Shown piece after piece: positions 3,693-48,724 of a stretch of DNA of 48,724 bases. Position 1 is the stretch's first letter, and each line of letters opens with the position of its first letter. The stretch is taken from contig JAFGKK010000089.1 of the NCBI GenBank assembly GCA_016928575.1, positions 1 to 48,724 of the forward strand, in the 5' to 3' direction. Both the position numbers and the translations under genes were made by a program. The stretch is from Anaerolineales bacterium. Lineage in GTDB: Bacteria > Chloroflexota > Anaerolineae > Anaerolineales > RBG-16-64-43. The notes under the pieces were generated by a model. The model had not been told where the DNA came from, ran no database searches, and worked only from the letters and a program-made list of their open reading frames with translations.

Positions 3693-4613
3693 TTGTTCGA
3701 CATCGTTTTCCTCGGCACCTCCGCTTCCGCCCCCTCCATCCAGCGCGGCCTGCCCGCGCAGATGGTCCTGCACAAGGAGTACCGGTTCCTGATCGACTGC
3801 GGCGAGGGAACCCAGCGCCAGATCCTGCAATCCGGCCTGGGGTTCAAGCGGCTGGATAAAATCCTGATCACCCATTCGCATTTGGACCACATCCTCGGAC
3901 TGGCCGGCCTGCTCTCCACCTTCATGCGCTGGGAGGCGATGGAAAAGCTGGAGATCTGGGCCGGGCCGCCGGCGCTTGCGCGGATCCGCGACCTGCTGTA
4001 CGGAGTGGTGCTGAGGGGGGGCCGCCCTCCGGTGGCGGTCGAATTCCACACCATCGAACCGGGGTGCCTGATCGAGGATGAAACCTTCCGGCTTTCCGCC
4101 TTTCCGGTGACCCACCGGGGCGGCGGGACCTTCGGCTTCCTGTTCGAGGAGAAGGCGCGCCGTCCGTTTTTGGCCGAGAGGGCGGAAAGCCTGGGCGTGC
4201 CGCCCGGCCCATTGCGCGCCAGGCTGGTGGCGGGCAAGGCCGTCACGCTGCCGGACGGTTCGGCGGTCGAGCCGGACGAGGTCCTCGGGCCGCTGACGCC
4301 CGGGACCCGGCTGGCGTTTGTCGGCGACTGCGGAAGGACGGATAATATCCTGGAACGTTGCCGCGGCGCCGACGCGCTGGTGATCGAAGCCACCTATCTG
4401 GACGTGGAGGCGGAACTGGCGCGCGAGTTCTCCCACCTCACCGCCCGGCAGGCGGCGCAGCTGGCTCGCGACGCTCGGGTCCGCCGGCTGTTCCTCACCC
4501 ACCTTTCGCGGCGGTACCGCGACCGGGAGGTTTTGGAGGAAGCCCGGGCGGTGTTTGCGGAGACGACCGTGGTGAAGGATTTCGACCGATTCTCGATCGC
4601 ACGGGAAAAATGA
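3693..4613 (+). CDS. rnz: ribonuclease Z-like metallo-beta-lactamase-fold nuclease
   Basis: Ribonuclease Z family (tRNA 3'-end processing), 306 residues from the TTG at 3693. FLGTSASAPSIQRGL and LIDCGEGTQRQILQSGL match the RNase Z N-terminus. ILITHSHLDHILGLAGL holds the metal-binding HxHxDH motif (a Leu replaces the more usual Gly), FPVTHRGGGTFGFLFEE the next His, AFVGDCGRTD the metal-bridging Asp, and LFLTHLSRRY the last His. The TTG is preferred because GGAG lies 6 nt upstream; an in-frame ATG at 3639 would add an 18-residue tail unlike the family. Its stop overlaps the next start (ATGA), so the two genes are translationally coupled. Confidence 0.88.
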   Translation: MFDIVFLGTSASAPSIQRGLPAQMVLHKEYRFLIDCGEGTQRQILQSGLGFKRLDKILITHSHLDHILGLAGLLSTFMRWEAMEKLEIWAGPPALARIRDLLYGVVLRGGRPPVAVEFHTIEPGCLIEDETFRLSAFPVTHRGGGTFGFLFEEKARRPFLAERAESLGVPPGPLRARLVAGKAVTLPDGSAVEPDEVLGPLTPGTRLAFVGDCGRTDNILERCRGADALVIEATYLDVEAELAREFSHLTARQAAQLARDARVRRLFLTHLSRRYRDREVLEEARAVFAETTVVKDFDRFSIAREK

Positions 4614-7600
4614 TCCGCGCATTGCGCCACTTTCCGATCGTTCTTCGCACCGTGGTGATGGCGGTCGCCGCCGTCATCCTCCTGCTGGCGCTGTTCGCCT
4701 TCCTGGGGTCCGACGCGCTGGATGACAGTACCCTCCAGGCGCAGCAGATGCAGCTGCAGTCCGCCGGGCTGGCGGCGCAGAGCCTGGACGTGCGGTTGGA
4801 CGCCTCCTTTCAGGTCCTGACCCATCAGGCGGATGCGCTCGGGAGCGGCGCGGATCCGCCGGCCGACCGGGAAGAAACCCTGAGCGCGTTGGCCGCGAGC
4901 GGGCTGTTTCCCGGCGGAACGTTCCTCCTGGATTGCGCCGGGTCGCTGCTCGCGGCGGAACCGGCCTTGGACGAACAAGCGGCCGAATCCCTCCGCAAGT
5001 CCCCGGCCGTCGGGCGGGCGCTTGAAACCGGCGCCCGCCAAACCGGCGATTTTGACATCGACGGAGGGGGATCGCCCCGGACCGTTCTGCTGGCGCCGGT
5101 GCCGGATTCCCGGGGCGGGGACGGTTGCTGGCTCGGCGGGTGGATCTATCTGGACACGGCCCCCTTCCGCGACTTCGCCGGCCCGGCCGAAGCGGGGGGC
5201 GCTTACTCCATGGTCGTCGATTCGGCCGGAAACACCCTGGAGCTCGACTCCCAGGGCCGGCTGACCGTACGCCCGGCGGCGAATTACGCCTACCTGTTCC
5301 CATATCTGGAAAAGCGGGAGGCCGGCCTGACGCGCCTGGACCGAAATCGGATCCAGGCCGAGGAGAGTCTGATCGCGGCCATCGTCCCGATGGAAAACGC
5401 TCCCTGGAGGATGGTGATCGTATCTCCCGAGAGCCGGGTGTACGGCCTGTTGAACACCCTGCGCTGGCAATTTGTCTATTTCGGCGCCCTGATCATGGCG
5501 GCGGCGATCTTCTTCGTCTGGATTTATCTGGAGGCGTTCGTCGGCCCGATCCGCGAGCTGCTCCAAGCCACCCGGCGCCTGACGGACGGCGACCTCTCGA
5601 CGCCGATCCGCGCCGCGGGCCGCGACGAAACCGCCGAGCTGGCCAGGGCGTTCGATGCGATGCGTTTGAAGATGGCGGATTGGAGCGGCGCGCTTTCGGC
5701 CGCGGTGGAACGGCAGACTCACCGCCTCTCGACCCTGTACGCCATCGACCGGGCGGCTTCCAAGACCCTGGCGCTGGAAGAAGTGCTGACCATCTCGCTG
5801 GAGCGGGTCCTGGACCTCTTAAAGATGGACGCCGGGGCGATTCTGCTGGCGGAAAAGGGCGCCCTCCGGCTGAAGGTGCAACAGGCGCTTTCGCAGGACC
5901 TGGCCGCCGCACTGAGCCGGGTGGACACCTCCCACCGCGGGATCGGGACGGCGACGCTGCGCAAAAAGGTTTCCGTGGCGGTTCCGGCCGAGTTTCCCGC
6001 CGACGGCCTGCTGGAGCAGATCCTCCGATCCGGCTTCCAGACGGTGGCCTGCACCCCGCTGATCGCCAAGGATCAATCGCTGGGGGTTTTGACGCTGTTC
6101 ACCCAGGCCGAGCGCACCTTCGCCGTCGACGACTTGGACCTGCTGGAATCGATCGGCCAACAGATCGGCGGCGCAGTCCACAATGCCCAGCTGTTCGAAT
6201 CCGAACTGCACCGGCGCGAGCAGGCGGAGGGATTGTACGAGCTCGGTTCGGAGATCATTTCCCTTTCGACCCAATCCGACACGGCGCGGGCGATCTGCTC
6301 CAAGGTTTCGAAGGCCGCCCGCGCCCATTCGGTCAACATCACCCTGATCGACCCGAACGGCCAGGTTGTCCTGCGCCTGACCGTGGACGGGCGCGGAACG
6401 GCGGCGTCCGAGCTGCCTCCCCGGCCGCACGGCCTGACGATGCGGGTATATTTCGACGGGCTGCCGCTGATCGTGGAGAAGCCGGATCCCGAGCAGGCCG
6501 AGATCACCCGGGAGACGGCGGCCGCGGGGGTGCAGGCGATGATCGGCCTGCCCCTGCGGGCGTCCGGGCGGGTGGTCGGCACGATGTTCGTCCGCTATTC
6601 CCAGCCGCGGTCCTTTTCCGAGGAGGACATCCGCGGGCTGACGACGTTCGCCAACACTGCGGCGATGGCGCTCGAGCGGGTGCGGCTGTTGCAGGAAACC
6701 GAACGAAGGCTGGAGGAAGTGGCCGCGCTCTACGAGCTCTCCAGCGTCCTGCGCGGCGCGATGACCCTGCACGAGATGCTTCCCCAGCTGCTGCACCAGG
6801 CCCTGCAGATCGCGCGCGCGGATGCGGCCAGCATCTCCCTGGTGGACGGGCAGGAGGTCGTCTGCCGGGCGGCGGAAGGCCTGGCGGCGGAGGTAATCGA
6901 CCGGCGGATTCCGCTCGGGGAGGGGTTGACCGGCGGGGCGGCCGCCAGCGGCGAGATCCGCCAAACGCCGTTCCTGCCGCGGGATCCGATGCTGGTCTTT
7001 CCGCCCGACTCCGGCACGATGGTGCGCGGCGTCGGCTGCACCGTGTGCATTCCGCTGCGCGCGGCCGACGAGGTGGTGGGCGTGCTGCTGCTGGCCTCCT
7101 CCAGCCGTTCGCAATTCGGCGAGAACGAGCTGAGGCTGCTGAAGGCCGCCGCCGACATCGCCGGCGGATCGATCCACCGGGCGAACCTCTTCGAGCAGTT
7201 GGAACACCGGGTGCACGAACTGAGTTCGCTCTACGAGTTCGGCCAGGCGGTGTCCACCAGCCTGCATCTGGAAGACGTCGTCCGCCTGATCGTCCGCACG
7301 GTCCCCCCCGCCGTCCACGCCCAGGCGATCTGGGTCTTTCTGTGGAACGAGGTCGAGGAACGGCTCGTGCTGCAGCATTCCGGGGAAGGATCGGATTCCG
7401 GACCGGCCGAATTGAAGTACCGCGCCGGCGAAGGGCTGGTGGGTTGGGTGTTTCTGGAGGGCCGTCCGGCCATCGTCGCGGACGTCAATTCCGATCCGCG
7501 CTGGAAGCAGGAAGCCGAGCACGAAACGGCGACCCTCGGGTTCCGGGTCCGGGACGTGATGGCGGTGCCGATGATCCACGGTAAGAAGGTGCTGGGGGTT

Positions 7601-8284
7601 CTGCTGGCGATCAACCGCCAGCAGCAACGCAGGTTCTCCGAAGCCGACCAGTCGCTGTGTGAGGCGCTGGCCGCCCAGACGGCGATTGCCATCGAGAACG
7701 CCCAGCTGTTCGAAGATGTCCGCGCCATTTCGGTGGCGACGATCTCCTCGCTGGCTACCGCGATCGACGCCCGCGATCCGTACACCCGCGGCCATTCCGA
7801 GGACGTGACTAAGGTTGTGGTCCAGCTGGCCCGCGAACTCGGCTGGCACGGGGCGGATCTGGAGATGCTGGAATTCGCGGCGCTGCTGCACGACGTGGGC
7901 AAGATCGCCGTCCCCGACGACATCCTGCGCAAGCCGGAGAAGCTGGTCCCCGACGAGTGGAACGTCATCTATCTGCATCCCTACCACAGCGCCCAAATCC
8001 TGCGCCCGGTCGAACCGCTGCGCAAGATCATCCCCTGGATCTACCACCACCACGAACGATGGGACGGCGACGGGTATCCGGACCGTTTGAAGGGCGAGGC
8101 GATCCCCGAGGGGGCGCGGATCATCGCCGTGGTGGACGCCTTCAACGCCATCACCACCAACCGCCCGTACCACAAGGCGCTTTCGGAAAAGGAAGCCCTG
8201 GACGAGATCGAACGCAATTCCGGCAAGCAGTTCGACCCGGTCGTCGTCCGGGCCTTCCTGCGGATCATGAAGCCCGCCCGCTGA
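4610..8284 (+). CDS. membrane sensor with HAMP, four GAF domains and HD-GYP phosphodiesterase
   Basis: 1224 residues. A first membrane segment (about 10-30) is followed by a large extracytoplasmic region (about 31-287) and a second membrane segment (about 288-311). Then come HAMP (IRELLQATRRLTDGDLSTPI) and four successive GAF-like modules starting near 373, 540, 704 and 868, each opening with a LYELGS-like helix. The C-terminal HD-GYP domain (about 1043-1220) has AIDARDPYTRGHSEDV, ALLHDVGK, HHERWDGDGYP and VDAFNAITTNRPY. HD-GYP domains hydrolyse cyclic di-GMP (some prefer cGAMP). The expected metal ligands are visible, so it is probably active. Four GAF modules in one protein is unusually long and suggests integration of several ligands. 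Start ATG at 4610 overlaps the rnz stop. Confidence 0.92.
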   Translation: MIRALRHFPIVLRTVVMAVAAVILLLALFAFLGSDALDDSTLQAQQMQLQSAGLAAQSLDVRLDASFQVLTHQADALGSGADPPADREETLSALAASGLFPGGTFLLDCAGSLLAAEPALDEQAAESLRKSPAVGRALETGARQTGDFDIDGGGSPRTVLLAPVPDSRGGDGCWLGGWIYLDTAPFRDFAGPAEAGGAYSMVVDSAGNTLELDSQGRLTVRPAANYAYLFPYLEKREAGLTRLDRNRIQAEESLIAAIVPMENAPWRMVIVSPESRVYGLLNTLRWQFVYFGALIMAAAIFFVWIYLEAFVGPIRELLQATRRLTDGDLSTPIRAAGRDETAELARAFDAMRLKMADWSGALSAAVERQTHRLSTLYAIDRAASKTLALEEVLTISLERVLDLLKMDAGAILLAEKGALRLKVQQALSQDLAAALSRVDTSHRGIGTATLRKKVSVAVPAEFPADGLLEQILRSGFQTVACTPLIAKDQSLGVLTLFTQAERTFAVDDLDLLESIGQQIGGAVHNAQLFESELHRREQAEGLYELGSEIISLSTQSDTARAICSKVSKAARAHSVNITLIDPNGQVVLRLTVDGRGTAASELPPRPHGLTMRVYFDGLPLIVEKPDPEQAEITRETAAAGVQAMIGLPLRASGRVVGTMFVRYSQPRSFSEEDIRGLTTFANTAAMALERVRLLQETERRLEEVAALYELSSVLRGAMTLHEMLPQLLHQALQIARADAASISLVDGQEVVCRAAEGLAAEVIDRRIPLGEGLTGGAAASGEIRQTPFLPRDPMLVFPPDSGTMVRGVGCTVCIPLRAADEVVGVLLLASSSRSQFGENELRLLKAAADIAGGSIHRANLFEQLEHRVHELSSLYEFGQAVSTSLHLEDVVRLIVRTVPPAVHAQAIWVFLWNEVEERLVLQHSGEGSDSGPAELKYRAGEGLVGWVFLEGRPAIVADVNSDPRWKQEAEHETATLGFRVRDVMAVPMIHGKKVLGVLLAINRQQQRRFSEADQSLCEALAAQTAIAIENAQLFEDVRAISVATISSLATAIDARDPYTRGHSEDVTKVVVQLARELGWHGADLEMLEFAALLHDVGKIAVPDDILRKPEKLVPDEWNVIYLHPYHSAQILRPVEPLRKIIPWIYHHHERWDGDGYPDRLKGEAIPEGARIIAVVDAFNAITTNRPYHKALSEKEALDEIERNSGKQFDPVVVRAFLRIMKPAR

Positions 8285-23032: not shown

Positions 23033-24093
23033 CCGTCGAGGTCCAGGGCGAAGACCGCCACCCGTCCGGAGCGGCCGGAGAGGTGTTTGTCGCCGAGGGG
23101 GCGGGCGGGGGGCTTGCCGGCGGCCTCGTAGGTGGCTTGGCTGAGGAGCACCTGCCCCGGCCAGGCTTCCTCCTGCAACCTCTGGGCGATGTTGACCGCG
23201 TCGCCCACCACGGTGTAGTCCATCACCAAATCGGAGCCGATGTTGCCGACGATCGCTTCGCCGGTGTGCAGACCGATGCCGAGGGCGATCTCGCCCGAGG
23301 CGAGGTTCAGCGCAGGCGCCTGCTCGGCGAAGGCGCGCTGGACGCGGCGGGCGGCCTCGACGGCGCGGCGGGCGTCGTCCTCCTGCGGCACGGGCGCGCC
23401 GAAGAATGCCATCACCGCGTCGCCGATGAATTTATCGAACGTGCCCCCGCACTCGAAAATCGCCCCGGTGAGGATCGGGAAGATGCGGTTGAGCATCGCC
23501 ACCACCTCGGCGGCCGGATGGTTCTCGGTGAAGCGCACGAAGCCCTTGATGTCGGCGAACAGCACCGTCACCCGGCGGGATTCGCCGCCCAGCCGCAGAT
23601 AGCGCTCGGGTTCGGTGAGGATCGTCTCGGCCACGTCCTTCGACACGTAGCGGTGCAGGGCGCGCGCCAGCAGTTCGTTGCGCTCTTCCAGGTCGAGGTG
23701 CAGTTTGCGCAGGCGGAGCAGCGAGCGCGCGCGGGTGAGCAGGATGACCGAATCCAGCGGCTTGCCGAGGAACTCGTCGGCGCCGGCGTCGATCGCCTCC
23801 AGGCGCTCGGAATCGTGGGCGGTGACGATCATCGCCGGAACCAGCCGGGTGCGCCTTTCGGCGCGCATCGCGCGGCACACTTCCAGGCCGCTCTTGCCCG
23901 GCATCGAAATATCCAGCAAGGCCAGGTCGATCCCCTCGCGGGAGAGGATCTCCAGCGCGGCGTCGCCGCTGCCGGCGGGGAAAACCCGGCAGCCGGAGGA
24001 TTCCAGGTAGGTCTGCAGGAGTTCGCGGATGTTTTTGTCGTCGTCCGCAACGAGCACGAGGGGAGGCCGGTTGAGGATGGCAGCCAGGTCCAT
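23029..24093 (-). CDS. response regulator fused to a class III adenylate/guanylate cyclase
   Basis: 354 residues from the ATG at 24093. The receiver domain (about 11-125) has DDD (17-19), phospho-acceptor D61 (LLDISMP) and the Lys in FLGKPLD. After a helical linker, the CHD cyclase domain shows VTVLFADIKGFVRFTE (metal Asp), FDKFIGDAVMAFFG (Lys and second Asp), GLHTGEAIVGNIG and YTVVGDAVNIAQRLQ (Asn and Arg of the transition-state pair). All catalytic positions look intact, so it probably makes cAMP or cGMP on phosphorylation. An in-frame ATG 14 codons upstream is less likely; GGGGA precedes the chosen ATG. No kinase gene lies nearby. Confidence 0.93.
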   Translation of the reverse strand: MDLAAILNRPPLVLVADDDKNIRELLQTYLESSGCRVFPAGSGDAALEILSREGIDLALLDISMPGKSGLEVCRAMRAERRTRLVPAMIVTAHDSERLEAIDAGADEFLGKPLDSVILLTRARSLLRLRKLHLDLEERNELLARALHRYVSKDVAETILTEPERYLRLGGESRRVTVLFADIKGFVRFTENHPAAEVVAMLNRIFPILTGAIFECGGTFDKFIGDAVMAFFGAPVPQEDDARRAVEAARRVQRAFAEQAPALNLASGEIALGIGLHTGEAIVGNIGSDLVMDYTVVGDAVNIAQRLQEEAWPGQVLLSQATYEAAGKPPARPLGDKHLSGRSGRVAVFALDLDG

Positions 24094-27536: not shown

Positions 27537-27681
27537 AGCAGAGTGTTGAAAAATGCGCCGTTGCCGGCGGGGAAATCCCGGCAATCGGAGATTCCCAGAC
27601 AGGTCTGCAGGATTTCACGGATGTTCTTGTCGTCGTTGGCGACGAGCACAAGGGCGGGCCGGTTGAGGATGGTTTGGAGAT
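27537..27681 (-). pseudogene. response-regulator N-terminal fragment next to a repeat end
   Basis: On the minus strand LNRPALVLVANDDKNIREIL and the following QTCLGISDCRDFPAGNG match the first 40 or so residues of the receiver-cyclase protein at 23029-24093 (LNRPPLVLVADDDKNIRELL). The similarity ends abruptly at 27553, where AGCAGAGTGTTGAAAAATGCG takes over. No usable start or phospho-acceptor region remains. The rest of the spacer 27122-27849 shows no recognisable gene. Confidence 0.75.
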
Positions 27682-41012: not shown

Positions 41013-42464
41013 GTGCCCATGCGCTTTGCCTTCGTAGACGAGGTTATCCGGTTCAATATCCCGGTTGGATTCACCGGAGTGGCATCGATGCTGCGGCGCG
41101 GCGGCCACGAGGTGAAGTTGTTTGTCATCGGCGGGCGCCCGGAGCGGGCTCTCGAGGCGATCCGCGCCTGGGCTCCCGCCGCGGTGTGTTTCAGCATGCT
41201 GACCGGCGGCCATCAGCGCATTCTGGAATTTGCCCGGATCCTGAAGCAAGGCGCGGCGGTGACGACGGTCTTCGGCGGGCCGCACCCGACCTTCTTCCCC
41301 GAGATGATTAAGCTCCCCTGGGTGGACGCCGTCTGCCGGGGCGAGGGTGAAGAAGCCGCTCTGGAATTCGCGGATCGGCTCGAGGCGGAGGGGGGGCGAA
41401 TTCCGGAGGACGTGCGCAACTTCTGGGTGAAGCGCGGCGAAGAAGTGATCCGCAATCCGGTGCGGCCCCGCAACCGGTCCCTCGACGACCTGCCCTTTCC
41501 GGCCCGCGATCTCTACACCCGGCTCTCCCCCTTCCTCTACCACCACGGGATCAAGCACTTTGTGGCCCACCGCGGATGCCCGAACCGCTGCACGTACTGT
41601 TTCAACGACGCCTACAACAAGATGTACCGCGAAGAAACCGGCCAATCCGGGATTTTCTTCTCCCGCTCGCCGGAAAGCATCATCGAGGAAATCCAGGACC
41701 TGCGCAAGAAAGTCCCGCTGCGGATGGTGGGCTTCGTGGACGACGTCTTCACCCTGGATAGGAAATGGGCCTTGGCGTTCGCGGAGGCGTATGCCCGGCG
41801 GGTCCGCCTGCCGTTCAGCATCAACGCGCGCTTCGAATCCTTGGAGGAGGATGTGACGGCGGCGTTGGCCGAGGCCGGCCTGCGGCTGGCGTATTGCGGG
41901 GTGGAATCCGGCGACGAATATTTCCGCAACCAGGTGATGCTGCGCCGGATGAGCGAGGAGCAGATGGCCGCCGCCGCGGATCGGCTCCGCCGCCACGGCG
42001 TGAAGCTGATCACGGAAAACATCGTCGGGCTGCCGGGCGAAACCTACGCGGCGGCACTGCGCACCCTCGCGGTCAATCAGCGGATCCAGCCCGACGTCGC
42101 CAACGCCTCGCTGTTCGCCCCGTATCCGAAGCTGCCGCTCACGGCGTATGCGGTCGAGCGCGGATTCTTCGACGGAAATTTTGACTCCCTGTATGAGAAT
42201 TATTACCACCGGACGCCCCTGCGGTTCGCCGACGAGCGCGAGCGAAGGCGGATCCTGAACCTGCGTTGCTTCTTCAGCCTGTTGTCGCATCATCCGCGCC
42301 TGATGCGCGTCTTTGCGCCGCTGCTCGAGCTTCCCCCGAACGCGCTGTTCCGCCTGATCGGGGACCTGATCGACGGGTATTATCTGCGCAAGTGCCTGGC
42401 TTACCGGATGGGCTTCGGGGAATCGTGGCAAACCCTGCGGCATTTCCTGTCCGCCTATCGCTGA
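41013..42464 (+). CDS. B12-binding-type radical SAM protein
   Basis: 483 residues from GTG (an ATG follows at 41019); AAAGG lies 6 nt upstream of the GTG. The N-terminal part is a cobalamin-binding-like Rossmann domain (FTGVASMLRRGGHEVKLFVI ... VTTVFGGPHPTFFPEMI). HRGCPNRCTYCFND gives the radical SAM cluster (C189, C193, C196). VGFVDDVFTLDR, LRLAYCGVESGDEYF and ENIVGLPGETY are later TIM-barrel motifs. The DxHxxG B12 motif is not seen, so B12 use is unproven. Such proteins often methylate or rearrange unreactive carbons. There is no cluster context. Confidence 0.88.
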   Translation: MPMRFAFVDEVIRFNIPVGFTGVASMLRRGGHEVKLFVIGGRPERALEAIRAWAPAAVCFSMLTGGHQRILEFARILKQGAAVTTVFGGPHPTFFPEMIKLPWVDAVCRGEGEEAALEFADRLEAEGGRIPEDVRNFWVKRGEEVIRNPVRPRNRSLDDLPFPARDLYTRLSPFLYHHGIKHFVAHRGCPNRCTYCFNDAYNKMYREETGQSGIFFSRSPESIIEEIQDLRKKVPLRMVGFVDDVFTLDRKWALAFAEAYARRVRLPFSINARFESLEEDVTAALAEAGLRLAYCGVESGDEYFRNQVMLRRMSEEQMAAAADRLRRHGVKLITENIVGLPGETYAAALRTLAVNQRIQPDVANASLFAPYPKLPLTAYAVERGFFDGNFDSLYENYYHRTPLRFADERERRRILNLRCFFSLLSHHPRLMRVFAPLLELPPNALFRLIGDLIDGYYLRKCLAYRMGFGESWQTLRHFLSAYR

Positions 42465-42787
42465 AGGGAGGGGGAGTTCCTCTCCGTCGCGGTGCGCCGC
42501 TTTTCGCGCCGCAGCCGGCGGTTGTTCATCCGGAATCCTTCGGAGGACTGCTCCGGCCGTCTTGATGCATGGCCGGTGAGCTGGATGCGGACGAACACCG
42601 GAACGGAACGTGTCGGTGCGTAGCGCCACCGTGCCGAAACCCGCCGGATCGTCTACGGGCGGCCGGTATCGTGACCTACGGGCGACCCCGCCCCGGCCGA
42701 CGGCGAGTTGCCAAGCGTCTCCCCCACAGTGGATACTGGCGGAAGCTCGGTTCTCGGCAAGCGAATCGGAACCCGACGGGGTGCGCC

Positions 42788-43870
42788 ATGAAGACGATTT
42801 GTGGAACCTTCTGGAGGATGCTGTACCTGCCGGCGGCGTGCGCGCCGGTCCTCGCCTGTTCCCTGATTTCCGGCGTTGTGCCGGCGACGCCAACAATTTC
42901 GTCCGATCCTTCCTCCATTCCTCCGACGGGAACGGTTTCGAGCGCCGTCGATCCGGGATGGCCTGAGTGCGACGATCTCAAGGCCGGCGATCTCGGCGGG
43001 AGGATTCTGCACGGATCCGGACCGCTCTTTTGGCCGGAGCATCACAACGCGTACCTGGCCGCCTTCCCCGACACCCTGCCGATCGTCGTCCGCGACGATA
43101 TCAACCTTGGAGGAACACGGTTCACCCTCGACCAGATGATCGACCGCCTGGCGGACGATTTCAACCGTTACCCGCGCGAAATTCCGCTCCTGACCATCCT
43201 GTACACCAGTTCGGAGGGCAGGACCATCACCGGCCTGGAACGGGAAGTGGCCCGCGGCGACTACGACGACGCGCTTGTAAAATTGGCCGCGCTGGTGCGC
43301 GGATTCGACCGGCCGGTGTTCGTCCGTCCGGCGCCCGAATTCAACGGCTCCTGGAGCGGGTACCACATCCGGCATTTCGCCGAATCCTTCCGACGCATCG
43401 TCAGCTTGTTCCGCCGGGAGGGGGTGACCAACGCCGTCTTTATGTGGAACTATATGCCGCAAGCGCGGGAATTCCCGTATTTGGATTGGTACCCCGGGGA
43501 CGACGTGGTCGATTGGTGGAGCGTCGACATCTTCTCGCTCCATTTCCTCGACCCCGCGGCCAACGCCGAGCTGCTGCGCTTCCTGGCGGACGCCGCCGCC
43601 CGCGGCAAGCCGGTCTTCATCCCCGAATCGGGGCCGTCGACCCAGGGAGTCGCCGACGCTGCCGTCTGGGATTCCTGGTTCGCGCCTTTCTTCGCGCTGA
43701 TCAACGCGGATCCCAACATCAAGGGGTTTTGCTATTCCAACGAGGATTTCCGCCAGACGACGACCGCCCCGGATTGGCAGAACGTCATGCTCCAGGATTC
43801 GCCCATCCGCCCTTTTTACGCGGAGGAACTGCGCAAGCCGCAGTATTGGCACCAATCCCCGCAACCGTGA
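42788..43870 (+). CDS. lipoprotein, GH26-like glycoside hydrolase
   Basis: 360 residues. A signal peptide with lipobox (VLAC) and a Pro/Thr/Ser linker are followed by a TIM-barrel like that of GH26 beta-mannanases. VRPAPEFNGSWSGYHIRHF fits the RPxHExNGxW acid/base block (here PE instead of HE), and VFIPESGPSTQGV fits the nucleophile strand. WWSVDIFSLHFL and GFCYSNEDFRQ follow. It is probably cell-surface anchored and acts on mannan or related glycans, but the missing His in the first block makes specificity uncertain. The preceding spacer 42465-42787 holds nothing recognisable. Confidence 0.8.
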   Translation: MKTICGTFWRMLYLPAACAPVLACSLISGVVPATPTISSDPSSIPPTGTVSSAVDPGWPECDDLKAGDLGGRILHGSGPLFWPEHHNAYLAAFPDTLPIVVRDDINLGGTRFTLDQMIDRLADDFNRYPREIPLLTILYTSSEGRTITGLEREVARGDYDDALVKLAALVRGFDRPVFVRPAPEFNGSWSGYHIRHFAESFRRIVSLFRREGVTNAVFMWNYMPQAREFPYLDWYPGDDVVDWWSVDIFSLHFLDPAANAELLRFLADAAARGKPVFIPESGPSTQGVADAAVWDSWFAPFFALINADPNIKGFCYSNEDFRQTTTAPDWQNVMLQDSPIRPFYAEELRKPQYWHQSPQP

Positions 43871-44101: not shown

Positions 44102-44404
44102 CGAAGAGAGTACTTCGCAACCGGGAGCCCGGGGATTGACGCCGGGATTAATCGCGTCCGACCCTGAACGCCGGTGAAGCACACGCCGGCACGACGAATT
44201 GGGGGGCGTGGTCAGCCGACGGCCTCACGGATCAGCTTGCCCTTCAACTCGACGACGGCCTTGGTGACCTTGATCTCGCGCGGGCAGGCGACCGTACATT
44301 GGAAGATCGTCCGGCAGCGCCAGATGCCATCCGCGCCCTGAGGCGCCGCCGTGTGTTCCGCGGCTCCGCGGTCGCGCGAATCGAACAGGAAGCGATACGC
44401 CGCA
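44102..44404. repeat. direct repeat L, duplicate of the sdhB 3' region
   Basis: About 300 bp aligned by eye to 47659-47961 at roughly 85-90% identity. It covers the last 65 or so codons of sdhB plus about 110 nt beyond its stop (GTGAAGCACACGCCGGC and GACGAATTGGGGGGCG are shared exactly). The flanking 43871-44101 has no gene. Confidence 0.85.
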
Positions 44405-44408
44405 AAGA
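44212..44408 (-). pseudogene. sdhB: 3'-end fragment of succinate dehydrogenase iron-sulfur subunit
   Basis: In frame on the minus strand, RFLFDSRDRGAAEHTAAPQG, CRTIFQCTVACPREIKVTKA and VVELKGKLIREAVG match the C-terminus of the intact SdhB at 47769-48476, including its last Fe-S cysteines. Beyond the fragment the frame opens into unrelated sequence (the homology stops at about 44404), and no start for a full gene exists. Differences are mainly conservative (I/V, V/L), so this copy diverged while still under selection or came from a related strain. Confidence 0.85.
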
Positions 44409-44580
44409 AGAAGTAATAAAAACCCTCAATTGGAATTCCCGTCATTAATCCATTTACCGGACATTAACCAAACGATAAATCCCCATTAACCGGCATTTTA
44501 CCCGCTTCCGATAAATTTTAACCGTCAAAACCCACGATGGAATCCCGTTCGGCGCGGGTCGTGGAATCCATTTAGCAGGA

Positions 44581-44710
44581 TGTTGAAAAAAGGTGTCGCA
44601 GGTGGTTGAGCAGCCCCGATGAAGCATCGGGGCGTATCGAAACCGCCGGAAATATCGCGGTCTCGATACGCCCGCACAAAACGCGGGCTACGCGACCGGT
44701 TTTTTCAACA
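44581..44710. mobile_element. 130-bp palindromic element with TGTTGAAAAAA ends
   Basis: TGTTGAAAAAA on the left is complementary to TTTTTTCAACA on the right. The interior has hairpins CCCCGATG-AAG-CATCGGGG, GTATCGAAACCGC-GCGGTCTCGATAC and CCCGC-GCGGG. It has no coding capacity. The ends are related to those of the 83-bp element at 22101-22183. The AT-rich stretch 44409-44580 before it is otherwise featureless. Confidence 0.7.
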
Positions 44711-44830
44711 CTATGTTAGGAAAATTTCTCGGAGGGAAAAATCAAACGGTTAATTAAAGCGTTCCATGCCTCTTCGGCCGGGCGGCTGGCAAGCAAGGCC
44801 GGATTCGCCTACCGCAATACGGGAATTTTT

Positions 44831-46507
44831 ATGAAAGTCCTTGTCCCGGTCGTCGGATGCATGCTGCTGTCCATGCTGACGACGGGGTTGGTTTATAACT
44901 TCGGGATAATTTCCATCTCCCGGACCTTGCTGGAAGGCGAGGTCCAGTCGGACAATCAAAAGGTCGTCGCCAGTCTGCGCGAAAAGCTGGGGTTCGGTGA
45001 TACGGCGGCGCGCATGTTGGCGAACGATCCGATCATGACATCAGCCCTGGCGATGGATACGGCGGATTCGCTTCCCGTCGTGAACAGCCGCGCGGTGGTA
45101 ATCCGCGACCGATTCGAACTCGATCTGATACAGATCTACACGGCAAACGGGAATCCGCGGACCAATTTGGTCCAAGCCAGCCTTTACAAGATTTCCTCCG
45201 TTATCGGTCTATTGCCGATGGCGGGATCCGGTATTTTCGAAGTGGATGGCCGCCTGTTGTATTTGGTCCGCGAGGATATCCAGGGCGGCGGGGCGGTCGT
45301 GGTTGGCATTGATCTCGCATCGGAATTGGAGAGGATCGCCTTCACGCTTGGTCTGCGGGACACCCTTTTCTTGAAGGCGGACTCCACGCCGGATAATTCC
45401 TCCCGGTTCTCCAGCGGCGAATTCATTTTTCGAACGCCGGTGACAATCGGCGCGCGGACTTTTATCCTGCAACAGGCCCGGCAGATATCCCAATTCGCCC
45501 GGATCGCGAATACGGGTCGCGACTTGATCCTTGCCGGAACCGCGGCCACCGCCATCCTGCTCAGCCTGCTCTTGGCGTTCGTGCTGCGTTCCATCATCCG
45601 GCCGGTGCGCCGTTTGGCGGAGGCGGCCCGGTTGTTGGCGCAGGCGGATTTTTCCAAAGCGCAATCCGGTTTGCCTTTGCTCGGCGAAGTCGACCATCTG
45701 ATCCCCATCGGCGTCCATGATGAGATCGGCCAGCTGGCCGATGCGTTCACCCATATGTCGGCGGAATTACAAGGAATTTACGGCGGATTGGTCCGCGATT
45801 TACAGGAGGCCAACCGGCAATTGAGCCTCGTCAACCGCGACCTTAAGGAATCCAACCGTTGCTTGGCCGTTACCTTCGAGGATCTGCAGGAAGCGAACCG
45901 GCAACTTAATGCCGCCTACGATTCCGCTCTCCGGGGCTGGTCGAGCGCTTTGGAATTGCGCGACCACGACACCCAAAAGCACACCGAGCGCGTCGCCGCG
46001 GACGTGGTTGTGTTGGCGCGAATGATGAAGGTTCCGGACTCGGACCTAATCGAATATCGCCGGGGAGCCTTGCTGCATGACGTCGGAAAAATGGCGATCC
46101 CGGACAGCATCCTGCACAAACCGGGCCCGCTGTCGGATGACGAATGGAAAACGATGCGCCTACACCCGATCTACGCGTTTGTCATGTTGCGGGAGATCCC
46201 CTTTCTCCACAAGGCGTTGGATATTCCCTACGCCCATCATGAACGCTGGGACGGCTCGGGATATCCGCGGGGTCTCATCCGAACACAAATTCCCCTCGCC
46301 GCGAGAATCTTCGGCATTGTGGATACCTGGGACGCGCTAAACAGCAACCGGAGTTACCGTGCGGCGTGGCCCCGGGCGCGGGCGCTGGAGTACATCCGTT
46401 CGCAGGCTGGAAGACAATTCGATCCGGAAATCGTGAGACTGTTTTTGCAATGGGTGGAAACGCCCCGGACGAAAATTTTGGAACGGTTCGAGGCCGTACC
46501 GGCCTGA
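44831..46507 (+). CDS. membrane-anchored HAMP/HD-GYP cyclic-di-GMP phosphodiesterase
   Basis: 558 residues from the ATG. A membrane segment (about 5-27), an extracytoplasmic sensor domain (about 28-230), a second membrane segment (232-255), HAMP, a coiled-coil linker (LQEANRQLSLVNRDLKESNR, repeated as LQEANRQLNAAYDS) and an HD-GYP domain: ELRDHDTQKHTERVA, ALLHDVGKMAIPD, HHERWDGSGYP and VDTWDALNSNRSYR. Metal ligands look intact. The frame is open 30 codons further up to 44741; there GGAGG stands 5 nt before ATC, giving IKRLIKAFHASSAGR, a cationic start typical of membrane proteins. The ATG is kept as the annotated start. It is the first gene of the block between the sdhB repeats. Confidence 0.9.
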   Translation: MKVLVPVVGCMLLSMLTTGLVYNFGIISISRTLLEGEVQSDNQKVVASLREKLGFGDTAARMLANDPIMTSALAMDTADSLPVVNSRAVVIRDRFELDLIQIYTANGNPRTNLVQASLYKISSVIGLLPMAGSGIFEVDGRLLYLVREDIQGGGAVVVGIDLASELERIAFTLGLRDTLFLKADSTPDNSSRFSSGEFIFRTPVTIGARTFILQQARQISQFARIANTGRDLILAGTAATAILLSLLLAFVLRSIIRPVRRLAEAARLLAQADFSKAQSGLPLLGEVDHLIPIGVHDEIGQLADAFTHMSAELQGIYGGLVRDLQEANRQLSLVNRDLKESNRCLAVTFEDLQEANRQLNAAYDSALRGWSSALELRDHDTQKHTERVAADVVVLARMMKVPDSDLIEYRRGALLHDVGKMAIPDSILHKPGPLSDDEWKTMRLHPIYAFVMLREIPFLHKALDIPYAHHERWDGSGYPRGLIRTQIPLAARIFGIVDTWDALNSNRSYRAAWPRARALEYIRSQAGRQFDPEIVRLFLQWVETPRTKILERFEAVPA

Positions 46508-46522
46508 ACCCCGGAGGAAACC

Positions 46523-47344
46523 ATGAACAAAACGCTGTTGTTGCCCTTGCTGATGTTTTCCGTTGCAAGCTGTCGGCCGGCGACGGTCTCCCCCGCGCCG
46601 ACCGAGGACCCGCTCGCCGGACGGCTGACGTTTGCCGGCTCCACGACGGTGCAGCCGTTGGTTTCGCAGTTGGCGGACGACTTCCGAGCTATGCATCCTC
46701 ATGTCACCATGGAAATCGCCGCCGGCGGATCGGCGGTGGGGATTCAGGCGGTGCACGACGGGACCGCCGACATCGGAATGGCCTCGCGGAATCTAAGCCC
46801 GGAGGAGGCTTCCGGAATCATCCTGCAAAAAATCGCAATCGACGTTCTGGCCATCATCGTCCACCCGGATAATCCGGTTTCCGGGTTGACGCTGGAGCAA
46901 TTGCGGGATTGCTACCTGGGGCGGATCACCAATTGGAGGGAATTGGGGGGAGCGGACATGCCGATTTTGCCCGTCCAACGGGAGACAAGTTCGGGGTCGC
47001 GGGGTGCCTTCGATGAATTGGTGCTTGAAAAGCAGGAGGCTTCCGCTCCCAACCTGGTGACGGCTGTGACGGCCGGGGATATGGCGGCCCGGGTTGCCGG
47101 GGAGCCGGGTGCCGTTGGTTATGTCGGCTTCGGGAATTTGGATCCTGCGGTCAAGGCGCTTGCGATTGGGGGAGTTGTTCCGAATCCGGCCAGTGCAAAA
47201 GATGGATCCTATCCGCTGATCCGCCCGCTGTTCCTATTAACCGGACCTCTGTCCCAGCCGTTGGCACAGGCGTTTATTGATTTTGTCCTTGGGGCCGAAG
47301 GACAAAATCGAATTCAAGAATTGGGCTGGATCCCGGTCCGTTAA
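46523..47344 (+). CDS. PstS-like phosphate-type substrate-binding lipoprotein
   Basis: 273 residues. The lipobox (SVASC) predicts a surface lipoprotein. LTFAGSTTVQPLVSQLADDF, IAAGGSAVGIQAVHDGTADI and GMASRNLSPEE fit the PstS-type binding fold (PBP-like domain). RETSSGSRGAFDELVL carries the conserved ligand-binding SG(S/T)R loop. It ends in EGQNRIQELGWIPV, a common PstS-type end. No pstCAB genes follow, so it could act as a sensor or accessory partner of the adjacent HD-GYP protein rather than in transport. Start 15 nt behind the HD-GYP stop, with GGAGG 5 nt upstream. Confidence 0.85.
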   Translation: MNKTLLLPLLMFSVASCRPATVSPAPTEDPLAGRLTFAGSTTVQPLVSQLADDFRAMHPHVTMEIAAGGSAVGIQAVHDGTADIGMASRNLSPEEASGIILQKIAIDVLAIIVHPDNPVSGLTLEQLRDCYLGRITNWRELGGADMPILPVQRETSSGSRGAFDELVLEKQEASAPNLVTAVTAGDMAARVAGEPGAVGYVGFGNLDPAVKALAIGGVVPNPASAKDGSYPLIRPLFLLTGPLSQPLAQAFIDFVLGAEGQNRIQELGWIPVR

Positions 47345-47356
47345 AAGGAGGCATCC

Positions 47357-47734
47357 ATGGATATCGGATTGGAATCGGCACGTGTCTTGGCGGGTGATTT
47401 TTTTCCGGGCGCCCTGGCGTTCTGGGTCAAAGCGGAGGAAAATTCGCCAGAGATGCGTTTGAGAGCCGGCGACCGGATCGTTTGCATCCGGACCAAAGCC
47501 CGGCCCGGCGACTTGGTCCTGGTTGACGGGAACGGGAAGGCCGGTTTTCGTCCGTTCGGCGACTCGGCGCGGGATTACCGCGGGGTGGTGTTTGCGGTAG
47601 TCCGCGATCTGGAGCCGGGGTCCCTCGCATCGCAATTGGCCGGGGGGGTAAATCCATCCGAAGAGAGTGATCCGCAACCGGGAATCCGGGCAACGGCGCC
47701 GAGATTAACCGCGTCCGACCCTGACTGCCGGTGA
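47357..47734 (+). CDS. small LexA/S24-like fold protein, C-terminus altered by repeat
   Basis: 125 residues. FWVKAEENSPEMRLRAGDRI and ARPGDLVLVDGNGKAGFRPF resemble the peptidase S24 (LexA/phage-repressor) fold, with NSP at the Ser-Met position and Arg where the catalytic Lys is expected (GFRPF vs VKR). YRGVVFAVVRDL fits the last strand. So it is probably a non-proteolytic relative. It has no DNA-binding domain. The last 25 residues (SEESDPQPGIRATAPRLTAS and on) are encoded by the sdhB-side direct repeat, so the natural end was probably nearer SLASQLAGG. ATG with AAAAGGAGG upstream. Confidence 0.6.
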   Translation: MDIGLESARVLAGDFFPGALAFWVKAEENSPEMRLRAGDRIVCIRTKARPGDLVLVDGNGKAGFRPFGDSARDYRGVVFAVVRDLEPGSLASQLAGGVNPSEESDPQPGIRATAPRLTASDPDCR

Positions 47735-47961
47735 AGCACACGCCGGCATGACGAATTGGGGGGCGCGGTCAGCGGACGGCCTCACGGACCAGCTTGCCTT
47801 TCACCTCGGCGATGGCCTTGGTGACCTTGATTTCGCGCGGGCAGGCGACCGTGCATTGGAAGATCGTCCGGCAGCGCCAGATCCCATCCACGCCCTGGAG
47901 CGCCGCCGTGTGTTCCGCGGCGCCGCGGTCGCGCGAATCGAACAGGAAGCGGTGCGCCGCC
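47659..47961. repeat. direct repeat R (partner of 44102-44404)
   Basis: Same orientation as copy L. It begins in the 3' end of the S24-like gene and runs into sdhB. Left and right copies bracket about 3.25 kb containing three genes and the 130-bp element. Confidence 0.85.
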
Positions 47962-48476
47962 ACGAAGGCCGCCGGGCCGATGTATTCCCCGTCGGCCCAG
48001 AAGACCGGGCAGGCGGTGGTGCAAGCCCCGCACAGGATGCACTTGGTCGTGTCGTCGATCCGCATCCGCTCGGCCGGGCTTTGCCGCCGTTCGCGCCCGT
48101 CGGCGGGAAGCGGTTCGTCGTTGATCAGATAGGGCTTCACCTTGCGGTAGGCGGCGAAGAACGGCTCCATATCCACCACTAGGTCCTTCTCCACCTGCAG
48201 CCCGAGAAGAGGTTCCACGGTGATGTTGCGCCCCTGATCGCGAACCAGGGTTTTGCAGGCCAAACGGTTGGCGCCGTTGACCCGCATCGCGCACGAACCG
48301 CAAATCCCGTGGGCGCATGAGCGGCGGAAGGTGAGCGTGCCGTCCATCTCATCCTTGACGCGAATCAGCAGGTCCAGCACGCGGTCGGAGGGTTCGGCCT
48401 CCAGGCGGAAGACGGACCACCAAGAGGAGGGAGTCCGTTCCGGATCGAAGCGTTGGATTTTCAGGGTGACAAGCAT
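47769..48476 (-). CDS. sdhB: succinate dehydrogenase/fumarate reductase iron-sulfur subunit
   Basis: 235 residues, full length. The 2Fe-2S domain has CAHGICGSCAMRVNGANRLAC; the C-terminal domain has CILCGACTTACPVFW (4Fe-4S) and CRTIFQCTVACPREIK (3Fe-4S). It transfers electrons from the flavoprotein SdhA to the quinone site in the membrane. Its ATG at 48476 has AAGGATGG upstream. No sdhA or sdhC lies within the window; they may be beyond the right edge. This gene's 3' end is duplicated at 44102-44404. Confidence 0.95.
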   Translation of the reverse strand: MLVTLKIQRFDPERTPSSWWSVFRLEAEPSDRVLDLLIRVKDEMDGTLTFRRSCAHGICGSCAMRVNGANRLACKTLVRDQGRNITVEPLLGLQVEKDLVVDMEPFFAAYRKVKPYLINDEPLPADGRERRQSPAERMRIDDTTKCILCGACTTACPVFWADGEYIGPAAFVAAHRFLFDSRDRGAAEHTAALQGVDGIWRCRTIFQCTVACPREIKVTKAIAEVKGKLVREAVR

Positions 48477-48590: not shown

Positions 48591-48724
48591 ATCCGTTCGT
48601 CATGCCCGCGGGTACTTAGCGGGCATCCAGCGGCTTTCCCTCAGACCGTATTCAAAGACCCTGGGCCCCCGATAAACCCGCTCGGGGGTGACGATCACAC
48701 CGGAATTCACGCCAGAGTGATTCC

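Follow-up and report, generated by a model that had tools for sequence, protein, structure and literature searches.

The NspS–MbaA system signals through a GGDEF–EAL output. Its periplasmic binding protein, described in Vibrio cholerae and Sinorhizobium meliloti, acts as the co-receptor of a c-di-GMP-changing membrane protein, and the ligand is a polyamine (PMC8967002, PMC9993111). In the AioX–AioS–AioR system for arsenite sensing, the gene for a periplasmic oxyanion binder lies beside the gene for a sensor histidine kinase (PMC5908839), while RapA of Pseudomonas fluorescens ties phosphate availability to a c-di-GMP phosphodiesterase that is expressed in low phosphate (PMC3032545). According to a 2022 review, SBP_bac_3 (in RmcA) is the only member of the periplasmic-binding-protein clan studied in c-di-GMP networks (PMC8846402), and our literature searches, which covered few subscription journals, found no published pair of PstS and HD-GYP proteins. 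On the side of DNA rearrangement, one-sided integration in Escherichia coli left 109–950 bp of the homologous gene end duplicated in most clones (PMC3240628).

We analyzed a window of 48,724 nucleotides, contig C89 of a 3.84-Mb Anaerolineales genome assembled in 137 contigs, in which an HD-GYP sensor gene and a PstS-like lipoprotein gene lie between two copies of the 3′ end of sdhB. The original prediction described the interval as a three-gene signaling block; comparison across genomes reduces this to a conserved two-gene module of HD-GYP and PstS-like proteins plus an unrelated small ORF. The features are as follows.

44102–44404, forward strand: left direct repeat, with 110 bp of sdhB downstream sequence and a dead sdhB 3′ fragment (reverse strand, stop codon at 44212)
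44571–44715, no strand assigned: palindromic MITE-like element with GTTGAAAAA/TTTTTCAAC ends and related copies elsewhere in the genome
44831–46507, forward strand: membrane sensor of 558 aa with an extracytoplasmic domain, HAMP and HD-GYP output, a predicted c-di-GMP phosphodiesterase (Pfam and sequence)
46523–47344, forward strand: PstS-like phosphate-binding lipoprotein of 273 aa, the predicted ligand receptor of the sensor, starting 15 bp after the sensor gene
47357–47734, forward strand: small ORF (P0004) of 125 aa without clear relatives, its last 25 codons within the right repeat
47659–47961, forward strand: right direct repeat, with the functional sdhB 3′ end and 110 bp downstream
47769–48476, reverse strand: intact sdhB, succinate dehydrogenase iron–sulfur subunit of 235 aa, spanning the right repeat

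Base-by-base alignment placed the repeats exactly where they had been predicted. The segments 44102–44404 and 47659–47961 are 90% identical over 303 bp, with an ungapped core of 300 bp (90%) and a widest extension of 309 bp (89.6%), and the longest identical runs between the left and right copies are 29 bp. The 3.84-Mb genome has no third copy, these two segments being its sole matches, and in ~700 kb of it we saw no further repeat pair with a length of ≥300 bp and an identity of ≥85%; the remaining repeats in that sample were tandem arrays and paralogous genes, mostly at 64–76% identity. The window holds a second direct repeat, of 117 bp and 85% identity, inside two same-strand ORFs (23964–24080 and 27556–27672). 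A portion of the sdhB downstream repeat (47721–47755 and 48596–48630) is a member of a short dispersed intergenic repeat family; about five similar intergenic units, spaced at ~91 bp, lie upstream of sdhB in G001, a genome of the same genus (L128, 7935–8371).

The right copy consists of the final 193 bp of the intact sdhB and 110 bp past its stop codon. In the left copy, which sits in the intergenic stretch between the GH26-like and HD-GYP genes, the same sdhB sequence ends at about codon 171 and is followed by AT-rich DNA (43% G+C, 44405–44570). Both the truncated SdhB C terminus on the left and the intact gene across the right copy had been predicted, and both can be read in the sequence. 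Using as references the sdhB genes of G001 and of G003, a genome of the same family (79–80% protein identity), we assigned the differences to one copy or the other. The ratio of left to right changes was 11:2 when polarized by G001 and 13:3 when polarized by G003 (two-sided binomial P ~0.02), and 10:2 (P ~0.04) and 12:2 (P ~0.01) after removal of the outermost repeat positions, the full counts comprising 13–16 sites. By its sequence, the left copy is a dead and decaying remnant of the sdhB end. The copies differ at 15/109 noncoding and 16/193 coding positions, roughly as expected if both drift outside the gene and the left alone drifts inside it. They are nearer to each other than either is to G001, so the duplication postdates the split of these species, yet it is old. 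The polarized decay makes the scar readable, telling which copy was orphaned.

Both G001 and G003 have a single sdhB with unrelated genes beside it, and neither contains the block or a second sdhB end. In G001 (contig C127), sdhB is followed by ~5.4 kb, lspA and then genes from further left in the window, their order matching with gaps; judged from their translations, three ORFs between sdhB and lspA are transporter-like, one of them Amt-like. G003 retains sdhB and the further-left genes and has other unrelated genes downstream of sdhB. No sensor or close PstS relative was found in the four other genomes of the family. The region downstream of sdhB is thus variable within the family. Left of the repeat, the window encodes radical-SAM/B12-binding and GH26-like proteins (41013–43870) that are absent from the lspA–sdhB interval of G001; the variable region therefore reaches left of the repeats, and the limits of the insert are unproven. 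To tell which flank is native, we aligned the left flank to the sequence that follows sdhB in the relatives; the matches were confined to short, dispersed repeats of intergenic type. The block is missing from these relatives, and no clean empty site is present among the available genomes, in which different genes fill the lspA–sdhB interval.

That the block arrived through recombination at the 3′ end of sdhB, as originally predicted, fits the anatomy, the single sdhB of the relatives and the decaying left copy, but the empty-site part of the case was not found. We consider one-sided recombination at sdhB, with duplication of the gene tail, the probable route by which the module came in. The donor DNA would have carried, in order, the HD-GYP sensor, the PstS-like gene, the small ORF, the sdhB downstream region and the sdhB 3′ end, and it would have recombined in an ancestor with the resident sdhB through homology on just one side, by a single crossover of a circular molecule or by homology-facilitated illegitimate recombination. 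The incoming 3′ end would have completed the resident sdhB and become the right copy, while the resident 3′ end would have been stranded past the insert as the left copy, decaying without selection. The left edge at 44102 would then mark the end of likeness between donor and recipient flanks, and the right edge of the left copy, at ~44404–44410, would be the illegitimate joint; by this route, block and duplication would have arrived together. One-sided integration is consistent with the size and orientation of the repeats, the pairing of an intact copy with an orphaned one and the absence of mobility genes. In GC3, the block genes fall at the 11th–16th percentile of host genes, a weak composition signal. 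Since the module is missing in the rest of the family, is scattered across three further families of the order and has a mildly low GC3, horizontal arrival is favored, with multiple loss as a possible alternative.

An equivalent repeat, with the observed pattern of decay and an intact sdhB, would be produced, with nearly as good a fit, if the block had already stood beside sdhB and a replication error or template switch had placed a separate 303-bp copy of the sdhB 3′ end ~3.5 kb away; the left copy does lie in the intergenic stretch from GH26 to HD-GYP, and the repeat would then be uninformative on how the block arrived. We regard this as unlikely without being negligible, because it requires two illegitimate joints and an extra event for the block, which relatives lack, and leaves unexplained why the repeat begins near the point where the folded core of the small ORF likely ends.

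Elements that integrate into icd or tRNA genes bring along a substitute for the gene end, and the layout left by them has the intact gene at the near side and, at the far side, the 3′ end that was displaced. The arrangement at sdhB is the one expected if the sdhB 3′ end had been the attachment site of a site-specific element of which only the cargo is left. This origin is nevertheless improbable and was dropped, as the ORFs lying between the repeats gave no integrase, no excisionase and no mobility gene of any other kind in Pfam and NCBIfam searches. No related element is present at sdhB in G001 or G003, and a check for an attachment core gave identical runs of 29 bp at most in the 10% diverged repeat, where an old core could have decayed.

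With one-sided recombination as the preferred origin, the repeats are an old scar. Excision had been suggested as a means of restoring one sdhB end, but sdhB is already intact and there is nothing to restore; moreover, identical runs of only 29 bp would make excision between the repeats inefficient. Recombination between them is possible in principle and would yield one chimeric sdhB end and no repaired gene. For these reasons active excision is not supported.

Two further components of the block had been predicted, an S24-like protein and a 130-bp palindromic element. The first assignment was rejected: P0004 scored 12.8 bits against the Pfam Peptidase_S24 model, below the cutoff of 23.3, and nothing in NCBIfam. 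Searches for its relatives found none in plasmids or the family and two borderline matches in the order, and P0004 does not come after the sensor–PstS pair in other genomes. A single-sequence model of the protein was too poor to interpret (mean pLDDT 52), and a fold search with it gave no match; in that same poor model, folding stops near residue 95, ~15 bp before the right repeat starts, and the recombination junction may have replaced the original end of the ORF. The palindromic element is real and extends over ~44571–44715. About eight related copies, complete or partial, occur in other parts of the genome; the closest of them, on contig C30, is 92% identical over 142 bp.

By themselves, the sdhB repeats are an ordinary insertion scar, and the cargo matters more. 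Pfam and NCBIfam searches confirmed the two signaling proteins named in the original prediction. The sensor belongs to the HD-GYP family (Pfam HD_5, 1.2e-38; motifs LLHDVGK and HHERWDGSGYP) and is a predicted c-di-GMP phosphodiesterase. No Pfam family covers its outer domain, no solved structure matched the sensor profile and a single-sequence model of the domain was too poor to interpret (mean pLDDT 40). With the listed start at ATG 44831, the protein (P0002) has 15–45 N-terminal residues fewer than its relatives. An in-frame open stretch at 44716–44835, upstream of this ATG, has a GGAGG site and lacks ATG, GTG and TTG; the gene may start at a rare codon. Elsewhere in the window, 4346–8281 encodes a second HD-GYP protein, of ~1300 aa, which is kept in G003 in similar surroundings.

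The PstS-like protein scored 211.8 bits against TIGR02136 (cutoff 206.6), is related to solved phosphate-binding proteins and carries the lipobox VASC, as read from its sequence. In PstS proteins, the GSTT and SSGSRG loops contact phosphate. Both ligand-binding loops are present in 8/8 members of the group described below, the second as SSGSRG or SSGTRG, and they align with similar loops in 4gd5.

A scan of the genome contigs with the HD-GYP protein as query mainly brought up proteins related to it in the HD domain only. A search of 400 genomes from the order found PstS relatives at 57–63% identity in seven others (G395, G030, G234, G134, G039, G078 and G305), separated by a clear gap from the next-best relatives at ≤47%, and a profile of the N-terminal sensor matched exactly those seven and the window genome. 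The hypergeometric probability of this co-occurrence in 8/400 genomes is ~7e-17. The binding-protein gene adjoins the sensor gene in seven of the eight, with spacings from a 4-bp overlap to 63 bp. In the eighth, G395, the module is broken at a contig end, the sensor and half of the HD domain lying on C231 and the remaining HD domain and PstS on C44, and the two genes were presumably adjacent. The output of the sensor is HD-GYP in five of the eight genomes and GAF, HisKA and HATPase in three; the outer domains of the HD-GYP and histidine-kinase versions are homologous (~28–33% over ~340 aa, E ~1e-34 to 1e-48). Elsewhere in the phylum, three genomes (G723, G597 and G537) have the sensor on HAMP-PAS-HisKA-HATPase kinases adjoining PstS proteins at 52–57%. 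A distant sensor is present in G463, where the 10 kb read showed no PstS, and in G728 the only PstS, at 32%, is ~2.9 kb from the sensor. The kinase version of G305 (L211, 3667–11879) directly adjoins pstS-pstC-pstA-pstB-phoU on the same strand and is flanked on its other side by a response regulator scoring against PhoB and a second pstB-like gene.

The pairing of the genes, the exchange of outputs and the linkage to pst genes suggest that the lipoprotein reports its ligand to the sensor and changes HD-GYP activity. The PstS-like lipoprotein would bind an oxyanion, most likely phosphate, for which the linkage to pstSCAB-phoU in G305 is the best evidence. It would dock on the outer domain of the neighboring membrane sensor, which, via HAMP, would switch the breakdown of c-di-GMP by the HD-GYP domain; we infer the ligand, the docking and the direction of control. 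Going beyond the window, we tentatively put forward, at slightly less than an even chance, a phylum-wide module in which the PstS-like lipoprotein would be the dedicated receptor of an undescribed outer domain, an ancestral PAS/GAF histidine kinase output would have been swapped for HD-GYP in one group within the order, putting c-di-GMP under the direct control of external phosphate, and the two genes would move between lineages as a cassette. The membership of the PstS-like protein in the PstS family would also suit an ordinary phosphate-transport subunit whose position by HD-GYP is incidental. We find this hard to credit given how strictly its gene co-occurs with, and adjoins, a single sensor family whatever the output type, and given that no transport genes follow the PstS-like gene in the window, that the same genome has another PstS paralogue (36% identity) and that the module PstS of G305 adjoins a separate pstS with its own transporter.

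Taken as a joint explanation, a one-sided-recombination origin together with an HD-GYP function gated by a PstS-like lipoprotein stands, in our estimate, at about even chances. An assembly artefact joining two sdhB loci of different strains, as a metagenome assembly of 137 contigs with a contig stopping ~250 bp past sdhB might invite, is highly improbable, since the copies differ at 10% of bases with identical runs never above 29 bp, the lspA–sdhB linkage recurs in G001 and the decay is mostly limited to the left copy, unlike in a live second strain.

If confirmed, the module would give external phosphate a direct route to c-di-GMP in this phylum; with one sensor joined to several outputs, it also serves as a ready-made natural comparison. 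The proposed integration resembles that in E. coli in that homology on one side joins foreign DNA and in that the size range seen there brackets the 303 bp of the present repeat; laboratory plasmids were used there, whereas the event that we infer here is old and natural. As in NspS–MbaA, a periplasmic binding protein would be the co-receptor for a c-di-GMP-changing membrane protein, but the polyamine-binding partner is replaced by a PstS-like protein, the output is HD-GYP and the outer domain has no Pfam match. The kinase versions of the module share with AioX–AioS–AioR the placement of a periplasmic oxyanion-binder gene beside a sensor kinase gene; AioX, however, resembles the phosphonate-binding PhnD and not PstS, and the kinase is the sole output of that system. 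With RapA the module has in common a tie between phosphate availability and a c-di-GMP phosphodiesterase, made in P. fluorescens through expression in low phosphate and here, as we propose, through direct gating by a phosphate-binding lipoprotein.
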